Shown in pieces: positions 5,804 to 38,452 of a DNA stretch of 46,864 bases. The notes below the pieces were generated by a model, which was given only the letters and a program-made list of their open reading frames with translations, did no database searches and was not told the DNA's origin. The stretch is from Actinomycetes bacterium (GTDB lineage: Bacteria; Actinomycetota; Acidimicrobiia; Acidimicrobiales; Bog-793). The stretch covers positions 1 to 46,864 of the forward strand of contig JAJZKA010000009.1 in NCBI GenBank assembly GCA_021809805.1, in the 5' to 3' direction. Numbering within the stretch: the stretch's first letter is position 1; every line of letters begins with the position of its first letter. The position numbers and the translations under genes are program-made.

Positions 5804-5815
5804 GGCTCGGGTGCG

Positions 5816-5875
5816 CAGGCGGCGCGCGCACTTGGCAGGCGGCGCGCGCACTTGGCAGGCGGCGCGCCCCTTGGG
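5816..5875. repeat. 20-bp tandem repeat, three copies
   Basis: The unit CAGGCGGCGCGCGCACTTGG occurs at 5816-5835 and 5836-5855, with a third diverged copy at 5856-5875. It is non-coding and lies directly after the second E1 beta gene. Confidence 0.85.
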
Positions 5876-14364: not shown

Positions 14365-14386
14365 CGGCGTCCAATGGGGAGCACAT

Positions 14387-14424
14387 GGGCGTGACACGTG
14401 AAGGTGGGCGTGACACGTGAAGGT
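14387..14424. repeat. 19-bp perfect tandem duplication at the start of the GNAT gene
   Basis: GGGCGTGACACGTGAAGGT is repeated exactly at 14387-14405 and 14406-14424. It spans the likely start region of the next gene, and its 19-base length would shift frame between copies. Confidence 0.85.
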
Positions 14425-14883
14425 GAGGGGCACCGGACGGCGTCGGGTGCTGCAATCGAGACCGAGCGGCTCTCGCTCGTGCTGCTCCTACCCGAGACGC
14501 TGCGTGCGCTGCTCGCCCACGACCTGCCACGTGCATCGGTGCGTCAAGGCGTGGTGCTTCCTCCTGAATTCCTCCCCGAGGACGGCGCGGTCGTCGGCCG
14601 CTGCGGCTTCCACGGTCCGCCGCGTGCAGTGGGTCGCGCGGAGATCGGTTACGCCGTGCAGGCGGCATCTCGGGGCGCCGGGTACGCCACCGAGCGAGCA
14701 CGGGCACTGGTGTGCTGGGCGTTCGCCCATGGAGAGGGGACGGTCTTCGCCTCGGTCGCGCCGGCGAACGCGCCGTCGCTCGCCGTGGTACGAAAGGTAC
14801 GGTTCGTACAGGTGGGTGTCCATCACGACGACGGGGGAGAGGAGCTCGTCTTCGAGATCCGTCGTCGCGCGGTCGCTGCTTGA
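14398..14883 (+). CDS. GNAT N-acetyltransferase, apparently shortened
   Basis: A 161-residue frame that begins to look like a GNAT enzyme at [11 protein letters not shown] and continues with [31 protein letters not shown], the acetyl-CoA pyrophosphate-binding loop (here SRGAGYA), then [13 protein letters not shown]. Related proteins have some 25-30 more residues between the VVLPPEF region and DGAVVG; here these join directly, suggesting an internal in-frame deletion. The start is unclear: GTG 14398 lies inside a 19-bp duplication and has no good ribosome site. The substrate is unknown. It may be a decaying gene. Confidence 0.6.
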
Positions 14884-17205: not shown

Positions 17206-17628
17206 TCACATCATGAGCGGCAGTGCGAACCACGCCACCTTGCGCTGGCCGACGCGGCGCACGCCCCACCGGCTGGCGAGGCGGTCAACGAGCAGGAGCC
17301 CCCGGCCGGTCTCGAGCAGGAGCCCCCGGCCGGTCTCGCGCAGGAGACCCCGACCGGTCTCGCTCACGCCCGCGTGTCGAGGCGCTGCCATCGCGCATGG
17401 CGCGCCGTCCCACACCTCGACGACGAGCTCCTTGTCAGTGCGCTCGGCCACGAGGCGGACGGCGGTGCGGGCATGGAGGATGGCGTTCGTGACCAGCTCG
17501 CTCGTGAGCAGCATCGCGCAGGCGTTCAGGTCGTCGAGCTCCCAGACGGCCAGTGCGGTCTCGATGAAGCGGCGCGCCGTCTCCACCGAGTGCGGTGTGC
17601 AGTTCAGCTCCGTCTCGACGCGCGCCAC
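17206..17628 (-). CDS. GHKL-type anti-sigma/serine kinase with expanded G2 box
   Basis: A 140-residue single-domain ATPase of the RsbW/HATPase_c_2 type. The N-box is SELVTNAILHA and the G1 region VWDGAP. The G2 box normally occurs once as ETGRGLLLVDRLA, but here ETGRGLL(R/L) is repeated three times in a row, encoded by three 24-bp units, adding 16 residues beside the ATP lid. The start GTG at 17628 has TGGAGGGA upstream. A SigB/SigF-like promoter (17656-17681) lies before it, so it may belong to the stress circuit that includes the sigma factor at 36.9 kb. Whether the insertion leaves ATP binding intact is unknown. Confidence 0.82.
   Translation of the reverse strand: MARVETELNCTPHSVETARRFIETALAVWELDDLNACAMLLTSELVTNAILHARTAVRLVAERTDKELVVEVWDGAPCAMAAPRHAGVSETGRGLLRETGRGLLLETGRGLLLVDRLASRWGVRRVGQRKVAWFALPLMM
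17290..17361. repeat. 24-bp repeat, three copies, inside the GHKL kinase gene
   Basis: Two identical 24-bp units at 17290-17313 and 17314-17337 and a third with changes at 17338-17361. The length keeps the reading frame and inserts two extra copies of ETGRGLLL. Confidence 0.95.
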
Positions 17629-18261: not shown

Positions 18262-18588
18262 GTAGTGCGCGTACCCGCGCGCCCCGTGCGCCTACCGCGC
18301 GAGCTCACCGCGTCGATTGGGCAGTGGTATCGACAGGTGGTCGCGCCCTTTCTGCCCGCGGAGCCGTACGCGGCGCACCCGCCCGCGGAGCCGTACGCGG
18401 CGCACCCGCCCGCCTCGATTGCCCCTCGTCTCCGCAGTTCCCTACGCTTCGGACGGTCCGGCCAGGTTCGGCGCGTGGCGCGCCCCTGGTGTGACCAGGC
18501 GTCGAGAGTATTGACAGGTGACGGTCGGATCGCCGTGCGGCGCGCCGTCGACGCAGTGGTGTCCGAGGCGCACGGCAGCGAGGACTGG
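18262..18588. other. 327-base divergent intergenic stretch
   Basis: It lies between the Rho-N-like gene and the YbhN-like gene. It holds a 27-bp tandem repeat and a TTGACA (18511-18516) without a matching -10. No gene is supported. Confidence 0.5.
18354..18415. repeat. 27-bp tandem repeat, about 2.3 copies
   Basis: A 27-bp unit starting with GCCCGCGGAGCCGTACGCGG is repeated at 18354-18380 and 18381-18407, with a partial third copy. It lies in the leader region of the next gene. Confidence 0.85.
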
Positions 18589-19841: not shown

Positions 19842-19858
19842 GGCCGGCTCAGCCGGCC
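19842..19858. terminator. GC-rich hairpin between convergent genes
   Basis: GGCCGGC (19842-19848) and GCCGGCC (19852-19858) pair over TCA, which is the stop codon of the minus-strand gene. It can end transcription of the YbhN-like gene. Confidence 0.5.
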
Positions 19859-20301
19859 TCGGCGCGGCGGGCCACGAGCACCGGGATCTCACGAGAGGTC
19901 CCCTCCTGGTACTCGGCGTAAGGGGGAAAGGCCGCCACGGCGCGCTCCCACCAGACCCTCTTCGCCTCGCCGGTGACCTCTCGGGCAACCGCGTCGAAGG
20001 GTTCGGGACCGTCCTGGATCATGAGCGCGGTGGGGTCCGCGGTGATGTTGTGGTACCAGTCGGGATGATCGGGGGCGCCGCCATTCGACGCCACCAGCGC
20101 GTACTCCCCGTCGTGCTCCACGCGCATGAGGGCGAACTTGCGGATCTTTTTCGATTTCGCTCCCCGCGTGGTCACGACGATGATACGGAGCTCCGTGTCG
20201 AGCAGCGTGTTCGCCCGCTGGCCGCCAGAGCGCTCGTACTCTGCGACCTGGTCGGCGACCCACGCCTGGCTCGAGGGTTCGTACTCTCCGACGAGGGGCA
20301 C
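19849..20301 (-). CDS. Deazaflavin (F420)-dependent nitroreductase family protein
   Basis: A 150-residue split-barrel protein of the Ddn family. The N-terminal half has LLDTELRIIVVTTRGAKSKKIRKFALMRVEHDGEYALVAS, followed by GGAPDHPDWYHNITADP, a signature of this family in mycobacteria and relatives. Members use cofactor F420 to reduce quinones or nitro compounds. The start is GTG 20301, with a -10-like TAGGGT six bases upstream and no Shine-Dalgarno, so a leaderless mRNA is likely. It is divergent from the hydroxyacyl-CoA dehydrogenase gene. It implies that the organism makes F420. Confidence 0.88.
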   Translation of the reverse strand: MPLVGEYEPSSQAWVADQVAEYERSGGQRANTLLDTELRIIVVTTRGAKSKKIRKFALMRVEHDGEYALVASNGGAPDHPDWYHNITADPTALMIQDGPEPFDAVAREVTGEAKRVWWERAVAAFPPYAEYQEGTSREIPVLVARRAEAG

Positions 20302-20307
20302 GGCTCG

Positions 20308-20313
20308 ACCCTA
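20308..20313 (-). promoter_or_regulatory. Candidate -10 of the Ddn-family gene
   Basis: TAGGGT on the minus strand followed by six bases and GTG 20301. Confidence 0.45.
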
Positions 20314-20314
20314 T

Positions 20315-20368
20315 CGTGGCGTCAGACCGATGCGCCGGCATCGCGGCGTCGCACCGATGCGCCGGCGA
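20315..20368. repeat. Imperfect 27-bp tandem duplication
   Basis: Two 27-bp units (20315-20341 and 20342-20368) share ACCGATGCGCCGGC at equivalent places. They lie in the 174-base divergent gap. Confidence 0.75.
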
Positions 20369-23077: not shown

Positions 23078-23449
23078 TCAGTGCCGGGTGCGCAACTCGA
23101 ACCAGACGCACTTGCCCGTCGTGCCCGACGCCGGTACGACACCCCAGGCGTCGGCGAGGGCTTCGACGATACGCAAGCCGCGGCCTCGTACGTCGGTCGG
23201 CCCCGGGTCGCGCCTGGCCGGCATGCCCGCGCCGTGGTCGCCGACGGTGATGCGAACCCCGTCGTCGAGCGTCTCCACCTTGACGACGTAGTCGGTCGCG
23301 CCATGGAGCGCCGCGTTCGTCGCGAGCTCGGAGACGACGAGACAGGCGACGTCGCAGAGATGCGAGTACGCCGGGGCCGTGGCACGTTCGACGAAGCGTC
23401 GTGCCGCCGCGATCGACGCGGGGGTCGGCGGGAGGGTCAGCTCGTCCAT
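23078..23449 (-). CDS. GHKL-type serine kinase / anti-sigma regulator
   Basis: A 123-residue single-domain ATPase of the RsbW type. All boxes are canonical: N-box VSELATNAALHG, G1 VGDHGAGMP and G2 GRGLRIVEALAD. Its start overlaps the end of the SpoIIE phosphatase gene by 13 bases, so the two are translated together. In partner-switching systems such a kinase phosphorylates an STAS antagonist, which a SpoIIE phosphatase reactivates. No STAS gene is adjacent here; the nearest is the rsbV gene at 38 kb. Confidence 0.87.
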   Translation of the reverse strand: MDELTLPPTPASIAAARRFVERATAPAYSHLCDVACLVVSELATNAALHGATDYVVKVETLDDGVRITVGDHGAGMPARRDPGPTDVRGRGLRIVEALADAWGVVPASGTTGKCVWFELRTRH

Positions 23450-25155
23450 CGCAGCTCCAAGAGGGCGATGTCGTCACGGGCATCATCTCCCGTGAGGGCC
23501 CGCACCACCTCGTCGAGCGTGTCGCTGCCGGTGTCGTCGAGGCCGATGACCGTCTGGCGCAGGCGCTCGAGGCCGACGTCGAGGTGCTCGCCGCACCGCT
23601 CCACGAGCCCGTCGGTGTAGGCGAGCAGCCGCGCCCTTGGTGGCAACGAGACGGTCACCGGGTCGTAGGAGTCCGTTCTCGAGACCCCGATCGGCGAGCC
23701 GGAACGGGTCTCGATGAACATCGCCTTCCGTTCGCCGCCGCCGTCCCATACGAGGAGCGGTGGGAGATGGCCCGCGCTCACGAGCGTCGCCTCGCGCCTC
23801 GAGACGTCGAGCTGGCCGAGGAGGACGGTCGCGAAATGCCCGTCGCGCGCGATGTCGAGGAGCGACGTGAGCTTGCCGAGGATCGTCGGCGCGCTGTCGC
23901 CCTGCGCCGCGTACGCGCGGATCGCGAAGTGCAACGAGGCCATCGCGTTCGCCGCCGGGATGCCGTGTCCCGAGACATCGCCGACCGTGAAGACCAGGTG
24001 TCGCTCGCCGCAGCGGATCACGTCGTACCAGTCGCCGCCGATGTCGGCCGTGGGATCCCCCGGGACGTAGCGTGCCGCGAGCGCGAGGCCCTCGACGGTG
24101 GGCAGGGCCTGTGGCAGGAGCGCTTGCTGGAGGCTCTGGGCGATGGTGCGCTGTTCGGAGTACAGGCGGTGGTTCTCCTGCGCGAGCCGTTCGGCAAGGC
24201 GGCGGCGGCGGGCGAGCCACTCGGTGGCCAGCACCGCGCCCACGACGAGCATCGTGCCCGTCACCGCGATGATCCATGGGAGGAGGGGCAGCACACCGCC
24301 GCCGAGCGGCGCCGTCGGCGAGTCGACGAAGAGCAGGCTCGACTGCCCGAAGGGGATGACGGCCGAGCCGGTCACCCCCGTCGACGGGAACGGGGTGGTG
24401 GCCGTGAGCAGCGCCCGGGCCGTCGGTCGCTTTCCCAGATAGATCGCGTCGCTCAGGTTCTGGAACGCCGATGTGGTGGGCGCCGTTGCGCGATGCGACG
24501 GTGAGATGGGGAGCTCGCCATAGGCGACGTAGCGCGGGGACGTGCCGACACCCTCCTCCGCGACGGCGATCTGTGGATGCGGGCCAGTGAGGATGCCCTT
24601 GACTGCCATCGACCTCGGCGCGTCGATCGTGGCGAAGAACGATGCAAGGCGCCCGGGCTCGGTGGCGAGCGCCGGCTGGCGGCCGAGGGCGAGCACCTCA
24701 CGTGCCCCGCCCGCCGTCTCGCGCCATACCGAGAAGGAGTCGAAGAGTGGATGCTGCGCATTGGTGCCCGTACCGACTTCGGGCGCCAGATAGCGGGCGA
24801 CGTCGGCGGGGGAGCCGCCCGCGTCCATGACGGCGACCGCGGTCTCGAGCGGCTGCTCGACGGTCGGGACGACCTCGCCCAACACGAGCGCGGCGTCGCG
24901 GGTCTGCACCCCGAGGAGGTGCGCTTGGGTGTGGGAGTTCACGACACCCGTGACCCACGCGAGCGCCCCGACGATCACGACCCCCGCGATCGCCACGATC
25001 ACGCTCGCCGTATGCAGGTGCCGGGCGGTCGCACCGGCGGGCGGCGCGGCGTCAAGAACTCCCGCGGCGGCCGGGAGTGTCGCATCGGAGGACGGAGGCG
25101 GCTGGCCCACGGGGGGAGCGGGGGTTGCCGGAACACGCGTAATAGTTGCAGACAC
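23437..25155 (-). CDS. Membrane-anchored SpoIIE/PP2C phosphatase with extracytoplasmic sensor
   Basis: A 572-residue receptor phosphatase. Residues 1-45 are a Pro/Ala-rich cytoplasmic lead; TM1 is about 48-70; an extracytoplasmic domain of roughly 230 residues follows, ending in TM2 near LPWIIAVTGTMLVVGAVLA; then a short coiled linker with SLQQALLPQALP, a known mark of SpoIIE phosphatases, and the catalytic domain with DIGGDWYDVI, VGDVSGHGIPAA and DDIALL supplying metal ligands. It would dephosphorylate an STAS-domain protein in response to an outside signal. The start is GTG 25155. The kinase gene overlaps its 3' end. Confidence 0.9.
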   Translation of the reverse strand: MSATITRVPATPAPPVGQPPPSSDATLPAAAGVLDAAPPAGATARHLHTASVIVAIAGVVIVGALAWVTGVVNSHTQAHLLGVQTRDAALVLGEVVPTVEQPLETAVAVMDAGGSPADVARYLAPEVGTGTNAQHPLFDSFSVWRETAGGAREVLALGRQPALATEPGRLASFFATIDAPRSMAVKGILTGPHPQIAVAEEGVGTSPRYVAYGELPISPSHRATAPTTSAFQNLSDAIYLGKRPTARALLTATTPFPSTGVTGSAVIPFGQSSLLFVDSPTAPLGGGVLPLLPWIIAVTGTMLVVGAVLATEWLARRRRLAERLAQENHRLYSEQRTIAQSLQQALLPQALPTVEGLALAARYVPGDPTADIGGDWYDVIRCGERHLVFTVGDVSGHGIPAANAMASLHFAIRAYAAQGDSAPTILGKLTSLLDIARDGHFATVLLGQLDVSRREATLVSAGHLPPLLVWDGGGERKAMFIETRSGSPIGVSRTDSYDPVTVSLPPRARLLAYTDGLVERCGEHLDVGLERLRQTVIGLDDTGSDTLDEVVRALTGDDARDDIALLELRWTS

Positions 25156-35639: not shown

Positions 35640-35645
35640 ACCCTA
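35640..35645 (-). promoter_or_regulatory. Candidate -10 of pgi
   Basis: TAGGGT on the minus strand, 12 bases before GTG 35627; the same hexamer precedes gnd and the Ddn-family gene. Confidence 0.35.
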
Positions 35646-36797
35646 TCGCCGGGATGCGTCGTCGTGCTGGGACGAGCCGTGCTGGGACGAGCCGTGCTGG
35701 GACGAGCCGTGCTGGGACGAGCCGTGCTGGGACGAGTGGGCGCGCCGCTGAGCCACGGCGCCCACGAGCTCCGCCAGGCGCGCCCTGGGGGAGTCGGCGG
35801 ACAGCGGTGCGGTCGCCGCCCCGGCCCCTTCCGCCATCCCTGCCAGTGCCTCCGCAAGTGCGTCGTCGGCTGCCACGGTCGGCGTCCACCCGAGCTCGCT
35901 GCGCGCGCGGTCGGTCCGCATGAGCGGGAGGCCGAGCGCCAGATCGAAGAGCGCCGGGTCGGCGGGAGCGAGGCGTGCGTGCCATGCGAGGGCGAGCGCG
36001 GCGCGCACGGCCCCGGGTGGCACTGCCACCGCACGGGTGCCGAGGATCGTGGCGATCCGTGTGGCGTCGAGCACCGGGTCGGCCGCGACGTTGAACGCCC
36101 CGCGCGCTGTGGGGTTGCTCAGCGCGAGATGGAAGGCCTGTGCAAGGTCCTTCGCGTGGACGCCTTGGAACCGGAGGCCCTCGGGGAACGGCAGGACCGG
36201 CAACGTGCCGGGGTGGAGCAGCGATGCTGGGACGAACGGGCCGGCGAAGAGGCGGCGCTGTTGGGTGCCCGACGCCCGCTGGAAGACGAACCCGGGTCGC
36301 AGGCGTACCACGCGCATCTGGGGCTGGCGGGCCTCGACGCCGTCGAGCACCCGCTCGACGTAGGCCTTCTCGCGCCCGTAGGCGGCGGTGGGCACGCTGT
36401 CGGTGGGCCAGCGCTCGTCGACCGCTTGGCTGCGGTCGGGGGACGGGACCGGCGAGTAGGCGCCCACCGACGACGAGTAGACGATGGTGCCGACTCCCTG
36501 GCGGACAGCTGCGTCGAAGACCCTCACGCTCCCGCCGACGTTCACCCGCCAGGTGACGTCCGGTCTGTGGGTGGGCTGGAAGATCCACGCGAGGTGCACG
36601 ACCGCGTCGGCACCCTCGAAGACCGGGTCCAGCTCGCCGTCGACGATGTCGACCTGGACGAACGTCGTCTTGGGCCACGATCGCTGTGGCGCGCGGCGCG
36701 CGCACGCGCGCACGCGCGTGACATCCGCGTCGGCAGCGAGCGCGTCGAGCAGGCAGGTGCCGATGTTGCCGGTCGCGCCGACGACGACGATGTCCAC
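35643..36797 (-). CDS. NAD-dependent epimerase/dehydratase family protein with repeat tail
   Basis: A 384-residue extended SDR protein. IVVVGATGNIGTCLLDAL is the Rossmann motif, VVHLAW and VYSSSVGAYSP precede the catalytic AAYGREK with Tyr and Lys, and RLRPGFVF is typical. It acts on a nucleotide sugar or similar compound, identity unknown. The last 30 residues are five tandem SSQHG/SSQHD units from a 15-bp repeat, hydrophilic and probably disordered. The start is GTG 36797 with TAGGGC six bases before it. It precedes pgi by only 15 bases on the same strand. Confidence 0.85.
   Translation of the reverse strand: MDIVVVGATGNIGTCLLDALAADADVTRVRACARRAPQRSWPKTTFVQVDIVDGELDPVFEGADAVVHLAWIFQPTHRPDVTWRVNVGGSVRVFDAAVRQGVGTIVYSSSVGAYSPVPSPDRSQAVDERWPTDSVPTAAYGREKAYVERVLDGVEARQPQMRVVRLRPGFVFQRASGTQQRRLFAGPFVPASLLHPGTLPVLPFPEGLRFQGVHAKDLAQAFHLALSNPTARGAFNVAADPVLDATRIATILGTRAVAVPPGAVRAALALAWHARLAPADPALFDLALGLPLMRTDRARSELGWTPTVAADDALAEALAGMAEGAGAATAPLSADSPRARLAELVGAVAQRRAHSSQHGSSQHGSSQHGSSQHGSSQHDDASRR
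35664..35738. repeat. 15-bp tandem repeat, five copies, in the epimerase gene
   Basis: GTGCTGGGACGAGCC is repeated four times exactly (35664-35723), with a fifth copy ending GTG (to 35738). On the coding strand it encodes the SSQHG repeats. Confidence 0.97.
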
Positions 36798-36870: not shown

Positions 36871-37680
36871 CTAGGAGCCCGAGGAGGTCGGCTGTCGCGC
36901 CGAGCCCGCGGGTGTGCTGGCGTCCGGTTGGGCGCCGTTCTCGGTGACGTGCTTTCTGAGCCGCTCGAGGCTTGCTGCGAGCAGTCGGGAGACGTGCATC
37001 TGGCTGATGCCCACACGAGCGGCGATCTCCGACTGGGTGAGGCCCTGGCCGAAGCGCAGCTGGAGGATGAGCTGCTCGCGGGGGGCGAGCTCGGCGATCG
37101 CCGGCGCGAGGAGCTCCCGGTCCTCGACGGTGTCGAGCGATGCGTCCTCGCCGCCGATGTGCGACGCCAAGGTCTCCTCGTTCCTGTCGGTCGCGTCGAT
37201 CGAGGACGTGCGATAGCCCTGACCGGCTTCGAGGGCCTCGAGGACCGCCTCTTCGGTCGCGCCGGTCGCCGAGGCGAGCTCGGCGACGGTGGGAGAGCGT
37301 CCGAGCTCCTGGTTCAGGGTCTCGGTGACCTTGCCCAGCTCGAGGTAGAGCTCTTGCACTCGGCGAGGTGCGCGCACCGCCCAGCCCTTGTCCCGGAAGT
37401 GGCGCTTCAGCTCACCGATGACCGTGCGGGTGGCGAAGGTCGTGAACTCGACGCCCCGGTCGGGGTCGAAGCGATCGACGGACTTCACGATCGCGAGCGA
37501 CGCCACCTGCACCAGGTCCTCGTAGGGCTCACCCCGGTTCGCGTAGCGCCGTGCCAACTGGTGCGCGAGACCGAGGTGCGCGGTCACCAGCTGGTCGCGC
37601 ACCTTTGGGTCGCGGCGCGCGACCAGCTCGAAGAAGAGCGCCTTCGTGTCGTCGCCTTGCGTCCGAGGCTCGTCGGTCAT
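36871..37680 (-). CDS. sigF: RNA polymerase sigma factor, SigB/SigF/SigG family
   Basis: A 269-residue alternative sigma factor. Region 2 reads AHLGLAHQLARRYANRGEPYEDLVQVASLAIVKSVDRFDPDRG; region 3 follows with ELGRSPTVAELA; region 4 ends in LRFGQGLTQSEIAARVGISQMHVSRLLAASLERLR, the pattern of general-stress/SigF factors. ATG 37680 has GGAACGAG upstream; an ATG at 37737 would overlap rsbW and is the alternative. Upstream lie rsbW and rsbV, and a matching promoter precedes rsbV, implying autoregulation. It would direct RNA polymerase to GTT-N17-GGGTA type promoters. Confidence 0.93.
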   Translation of the reverse strand: MTDEPRTQGDDTKALFFELVARRDPKVRDQLVTAHLGLAHQLARRYANRGEPYEDLVQVASLAIVKSVDRFDPDRGVEFTTFATRTVIGELKRHFRDKGWAVRAPRRVQELYLELGKVTETLNQELGRSPTVAELASATGATEEAVLEALEAGQGYRTSSIDATDRNEETLASHIGGEDASLDTVEDRELLAPAIAELAPREQLILQLRFGQGLTQSEIAARVGISQMHVSRLLAASLERLRKHVTENGAQPDASTPAGSARQPTSSGS

Positions 37681-37700
37681 GTCGTCTCGTTCCAGGGTGC

Positions 37701-38108
37701 TCAGCCGATCGGATCGGCGCGCCGCTTGCAGAGCCATGCGCTCGGTCGTCCTTTCGCCAAGTCGTGTCCGTGCTCGTCTACCAGCGCGTCGAGGATGCGC
37801 AGCGACAGATCTTCGGCGTCGCCAACGCGTCCGCGCGTCTCGTGGTCACCTGCCTCGTACCAGCAGTCGACCGTGATGGCGTCCTCCTCGCACTCGTAGG
37901 TCAAGTGGAGTCGCCCGTCCCGGCGCGTGCCGACCAAGGAGAGACAAAGCTCTTCGACAGCGAGGCGAAGGTCCTCGATGTCCTCGACGCCGAAGCCGGC
38001 TCGCCCGGCGACCGTGGCCGCGGTGAGCCGTGCCAGCACCACCAGGTCTGCCTGCACGGGGATCGACAGTTCGACCGACACCGTGCTCTGTCCGCGCACC
38101 GTGCTCAT
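37701..38108 (-). CDS. rsbW: Anti-sigma factor RsbW-like, with degenerate ATP-binding boxes
   Basis: A 135-residue RsbW-like protein between rsbV and the sigma gene. The helix with the N-box reads LRLAVEELCLSLVG: the Glu is kept but the Asn that coordinates Mg-ATP in GHKL kinases is Ser at about residue 57. No clear G1 (D-x-G-x-G) is visible; a remnant of the last helix is LSLRILDALVDE. It should bind the sigma factor, but kinase activity toward RsbV is doubtful from these residues. ATG 38108 overlaps rsbV by 4 bases and has GGAGCG upstream. Confidence 0.85.
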   Translation of the reverse strand: MSTVRGQSTVSVELSIPVQADLVVLARLTAATVAGRAGFGVEDIEDLRLAVEELCLSLVGTRRDGRLHLTYECEEDAITVDCWYEAGDHETRGRVGDAEDLSLRILDALVDEHGHDLAKGRPSAWLCKRRADPIG

Positions 38109-38452
38109 GCCACGCTCCGTACCGCGTCGTCCACGCTGCCGTAGATCGGGAAGACGCCCGTCAGCCCGGTGATCTCGAACACCTTCAGGATGCGCGGCTC
38201 GGTGATGACGAGCGGGAGGTCGCCGCCCGCCTCGCGGCACCGCTTCAATGCGCCCACGAGCACGCCGAGCGCGGTGGAGTCGAGGAAGGTGACCCCGAGC
38301 AGGTCGACGACGACGGTCGACTTGCCCGACGCGGTCGTTGCCTGCAGCCGGTCACGCAGTGGCGGTGCGGTGGCGACATCGATCTCCCCGGACGCGGACA
38401 CCACCGGTATGCCGTTCGCCTCGTGATCGGTGATGTGGAAGCTCTGGTCCAT
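38105..38452 (-). CDS. rsbV: STAS-domain anti-anti-sigma factor
   Basis: A 115-residue STAS protein. SGEIDVATAPPLRDRL and VDLLGVTFLDSTALGVLVGALKRC are diagnostic; S59 in LDSTALG is the residue that kinases phosphorylate. When unphosphorylated it binds the anti-sigma factor and frees the sigma factor. ATG 38452 has GGAGCC upstream. The stop overlaps the rsbW start (ATGA), indicating coupled translation. A SigF-type promoter lies about 140 bases upstream. Confidence 0.95.
   Translation of the reverse strand: MDQSFHITDHEANGIPVVSASGEIDVATAPPLRDRLQATTASGKSTVVVDLLGVTFLDSTALGVLVGALKRCREAGGDLPLVITEPRILKVFEITGLTGVFPIYGSVDDAVRSVA

Follow-up and report, generated by a model that had tools for sequence, protein, structure and literature searches.

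Why does a gene for a small ATP-binding protein carry a 24-bp unit three times in succession, each encoding the residues of a catalytic motif (the G2 box), and what have the additional units done to the protein? We addressed this question in the window, the whole stretch of 46,864 nucleotides analysed here (contig JAJZKA010000009.1 of the Actinomycetes bacterium assembly GCA_021809805.1). The gene and its motifs outside the repeat are as follows.

17206..17628, minus strand: stand-alone HATPase_c_2 (RsbW/SpoIIAB-like) gene, 140 aa
17473..17499, minus strand: intact N box ELVTNAILH, residues 44-52
17407..17409, minus strand: G1 aspartate D74

The 140-aa product matches the Pfam family PF13581 (HATPase_c_2) with 41.4 bits, above the cut-off of 27.4, and its reading frame has no stops inside and a coding-type composition (GC of 0.73, 0.52 and 0.91 at the three codon positions). 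The hallmarks of PF13581, namely the N-box Glu and Asn, the G1 Asp and the G2 glycines, are all present. Moreover, all nine columns that are invariant in an alignment of 35 sequences are kept, including E44, N48, D74, G108 and G110, and H52 is nearly invariant in the same alignment; the protein therefore most likely still binds ATP. Among solved structures, SpoIIAB and RsbW were matched by the profile of this 35-member family. No named NCBIfam family was found above its cut-off, the only match being RsbA_anti_sig with 26.3 bits against a cut-off of 210, and no STAS or sigma gene adjoins the gene, the scanned neighbours being of other families or unmatched. The product is best read as a small regulator that stands alone and binds ATP, of the RsbW or HATPase-only kind, and as a putative kinase. 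The genome holds 12 matches to it, itself included. The window has another stand-alone HATPase_c_2 gene, at 23081-23455 (minus strand), in which the G2 box is single.

The repeat in the gene is composed of the following parts.

17290..17361, minus strand: tandem array of three 24-bp units (TRF score 127; direct repeat family D1)
17338..17361, minus strand: unit 1, ETGRGLLR, residues 90-97, with 3 of its 24 bases different from units 2 and 3
17314..17337, minus strand: unit 2, ETGRGLLL, residues 98-105, base-identical to unit 3
17290..17313, minus strand: unit 3, read as the native G2 box, ETGRGLLL, residues 106-113, followed by a helix (109-117) in the structure model

The initial annotation had proposed a triplicated 24-bp unit at 17290-17361 with ETGRGLL present three times, and both points agree with our results: TRF on the window called the array at the same place (17289-17362, period 24, 3.1 copies, score 127), and translation gave ETGRGLLR, ETGRGLLL and ETGRGLLL, head-to-tail and in frame with the gene. 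The array did not arise by chance, because order-2 Markov simulations of the window (100 in all) reached a TRF score of 99 at most. Moreover, the 21-base core, allowing up to three mismatches, matched in the window only at the three units of the array, where the chance expectation was 0.07. Unit 1 differs from units 2 and 3 at three bases, of which two (GGT/GGC and GGT/GGG) are silent and one (CGC/CTC) exchanges Arg and Leu, though three differences are too few to demonstrate selection. No hairpin that would favour slippage was found in the array, and hairpin-driven slippage was rejected since folding of the array was not unusual (z -0.30).

The units lie next to, or within, the following segment.

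17311..17382, minus strand: ATP lid (residues 83-106), left unstructured by the structure model (pLDDT below 50)

As had been claimed, the insertion is located in the ATP lid, between D74 and the native G2 box (residues 106-113), according to both the alignment and an AlphaFold2 model. The alignment took in 34 of the 36 related loci, leaving out L018 and L014, the former because it is truncated at a contig end and the latter because it is close to L012. Measured from the G1 Asp to the first glycine of G2, the distance is 34 residues in the window protein, against 18 in 26 of the 34 aligned relatives; in the others it is 17-22 (six loci), 26 (L024) and 39 (L029), so that the lid of the window protein exceeds that of 33 of the 34. 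Relative to the common value of 18, the window protein thus has exactly two 8-residue units more (18 + 2 x 8). In the SpoIIAB structure, the distance is 26 by manual count on a profile alignment. The AlphaFold2 model, built with a 12-sequence alignment, had a mean pLDDT of 83.2 and, outside residues 83-106, a confident Bergerat-type fold. In this model the helix that follows G2 starts at residue 109, though the register was partly imposed by the input alignment. A single-sequence structure model (mean pLDDT 58) built residues 76-113 as strands with pLDDT below 50 and gave no independent support for the register. Foldseek with the predicted fold returned RsbW, SpoIIAB or SigF anti-sigma (UsfX) entries as hits 1-16, including RsbW 6m37 (E 1.5e-6). 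Unit 3 is aligned as G2 because its glycines G108 and G110 occupy columns that are invariant (35 sequences), and it is the only copy that precedes the helix LVDRLASRWG. In terms of alignment and model, the third copy is best read as the working G2 box and copies 1 and 2 as filler in the low-confidence lid loop, and hence the view of the initial annotation that the two extra copies are G2 boxes is not supported.

With regard to the ancestral state, all 36 related loci (L002-L037, with L018 cut by a contig end) have a single G2 box, just as the initial annotation stated for relatives. A protein search found no ortholog among 60 relatives, the best match outside this genome having about 46-47% identity, and a scan of genome_contigs gave no ortholog either. 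The flanking genes were not together in 9 relatives, and no second strain was found in these searches. Since no ortholog was found, the ancestral single copy is deduced from paralogs and these distant relatives. A TGRGL pair at 24-bp spacing occurred in 14 stretches of genome_contigs, and the reading frames placed none of them in a GHKL gene; a looser GRGL pair matched in 25 of 395 genomes of the class, this genome included. The window gene alone has an N box upstream among the 30 GRGL-pair and 14 TGRGL-pair loci inspected, where the pair patterns detect only one spacing (24 bp) and GC-rich codons. In viral_contigs, the 21-base core had one match at one locus, with no array and no N box in the frames inspected. 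Titles and abstract openings of the papers listed for lid duplications or RsbW/SpoIIAB repeats revealed no duplication of the G2 box.

These results are probably best explained by two successive in-frame tandem duplications, which lengthened a tolerant lid loop and left the regulator intact, the effect being slight or absent. Two in-frame 24-bp duplications would have added 16 residues to the flexible ATP lid, the older one setting unit 1 apart and the younger one yielding the identical units 2 and 3. As unit 1 has diverged from units 2 and 3, the first duplication is not very recent. We infer this order of events from the unit sequences, and slippage in DNA copying is the presumed origin of both duplications. 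Units 1 and 2 would then be loop filler tolerated by the fold, ATP handling or partner release would be changed little or not at all, and the protein would have retained its function. Tolerance of the lid to length is illustrated by the natural long lids at the same place in L029 and L024 (39 and 26 residues from the G1 Asp to G2). The array as it stands is thus most likely a tolerated mutation.

Tandem arrays are abundant in this genome. Arrays with TRF score of at least 70 occur at 45 per Mb in 486 kb of its other contigs, at 42 per Mb in a genome of the same genus (G002) and at 16-114 per Mb in samples of four other relatives. Short arrays being so common, an in-frame array within a gene is an ordinary event; the unusual part is that this one falls on a catalytic motif. 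The window itself holds 8 such arrays in 47 kb compared with 22 in 486 kb elsewhere (binomial P 0.004, for a window chosen after the fact). Near-perfect arrays of 19-27 bp units at 5815-5867, 14386-14425, 18354-18413 and 20313-20366 are apparently intergenic or just 5' of genes, reminiscent of the promoter tandem repeats of M. tuberculosis; the last of them lies between an F420H2_quin_red ORF (19849-20301, minus strand) and a 3HCDH domain gene. Another array at 35663-35736 has a perfect 15-bp unit in 4.9 copies and lies near the 3' end of the ORF at 35643-36797 (minus strand), which is of the epimerase type.

Alternatively, the insertion may have damaged the protein, such that the lid cannot close and the gene, one among roughly a dozen paralogs, is drifting. 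In favour of this are the 12 matches in the genome and a lid longer than in 33 of 34 relatives. However, the frame is open with a third-position GC of 0.91, all the invariant residues are kept and the differences between the copies are mostly silent, which makes this damage unlikely.

It is also unlikely that the array is a contingency locus, in which slippage or recombination alters the unit number from cell to cell and each length confers another strength of ATPase or kinase, as in the lid repeat of MutL. The identical adjacent 24-bp copies, units 2 and 3, would be able to recombine, but the divergence of unit 1 suggests that the array may not be kept homogeneous, and similar arrays are present throughout the genome with no sign of a programme. 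Three long units are also few in comparison with known fast-switching arrays. The copy-number switch suggested in the initial annotation is unsupported, no ortholog or second strain having been found. On the other hand, there are precedents: the ATP lid of MutL has three 6-bp repeats (PMC2955026), the promoter tandem repeats of M. tuberculosis vary in copy number, which is described as able to matter (PMC12817950), and the same is described for a repeat in E. coli tolA (PMC3477136). Were the array to act as a switch, it would join MutL as the second example of this sort.

An assembly artefact, with a shorter array in the organism itself, is very unlikely: the draft genome comprises 210 contigs, but unit 1 is distinct in sequence from units 2 and 3, assembly of short reads tends to lose repeat copies rather than gain them, and a read of common length exceeds the 72 bp of the array.

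The window also contains an operon of the rsbV-rsbW-sigF type, about 20 kb from the array gene.

36871-38440, minus strand: the whole operon
38123-38440, minus strand: STAS gene, with the only STAS match on the contig (38123-38425)
37701-38108, minus strand: RsbW-like gene, with EELCLSLV at the place of the N box and without the usual form of G2
36871-37737, minus strand: SigB/F/G-type sigma gene

The RsbW-like protein of this operon has no Asn at the N-box position and is similar to RsbW, the mycobacterial anti-sigma factor of SigF (8ih8, 8jzt), while a candidate Ser is retained in the STAS protein. In M. smegmatis, RsbW1 is described as the anti-sigma factor and its homolog RsbW2 as the kinase of the antagonist RsfB (PMC7693655). 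Since the RsbW of the operon is without the N-box Asn and the usual G2 and has this similarity to the mycobacterial protein, its kinase may be encoded elsewhere. By analogy, it could be one of the stand-alone HATPases of the genome, and the window protein would be one of about a dozen candidates for it. It is very unlikely that the array is a length-tunable lid on this unlinked partner kinase, whose unit number would set the speed of STAS phosphorylation and hence the ease of sigma release, varying between cells; if true, unit number would tune how easily the sigma factor is freed, cell by cell.

Returning to the tolerated duplications, we compare the window protein with known systems. It shares the fold and the broad ATPase family with the anti-sigma factors RsbW, SpoIIAB and UsfX; unlike theirs, its gene has no adjoining sigma or STAS gene, and it reaches only 26.3 of the 210 bits of the NCBIfam anti-sigma model. 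S. coelicolor is reported to have at least 26 HATPase-only proteins, and one such regulator, SspH, is reported to need the N-box Asn and the G1 Asp though its G1 is without the usual glycines (PMC9137472). Like SspH and the other HATPase-only regulators of Streptomyces, the window protein is a single HATPase domain of about 140 aa with the N-box Asn kept and the G1 Asp without a DxGxG core; unlike them, it has a lid repeat, which the part of the report considered here does not describe for the Streptomyces proteins (PMC9137472). Lid length varies by family among GHKL proteins, and here the length difference consists of two copies of the catalytic motif itself. Therefore, one gene gives a clean series of one, two and three units for effects of lid length on ATP handling in a minimal GHKL protein. 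The closest parallel is MutL of Salmonella and E. coli, in which three 6-bp repeats (LALALA) are described in the region that covers the ATP pocket as a lid; the allele that has lost one of them is defective and a mutator (PMC2955026). The repeat of MutL has a shorter unit, contains no copy of a catalytic motif and was shown by experiment to switch, whereas the unit described here has 24 bp and is a copy of the G2 box. Nevertheless, each is an in-frame tandem repeat of three units that lies within the ATP lid of a GHKL protein with ATPase fold (PMC2955026, for MutL).
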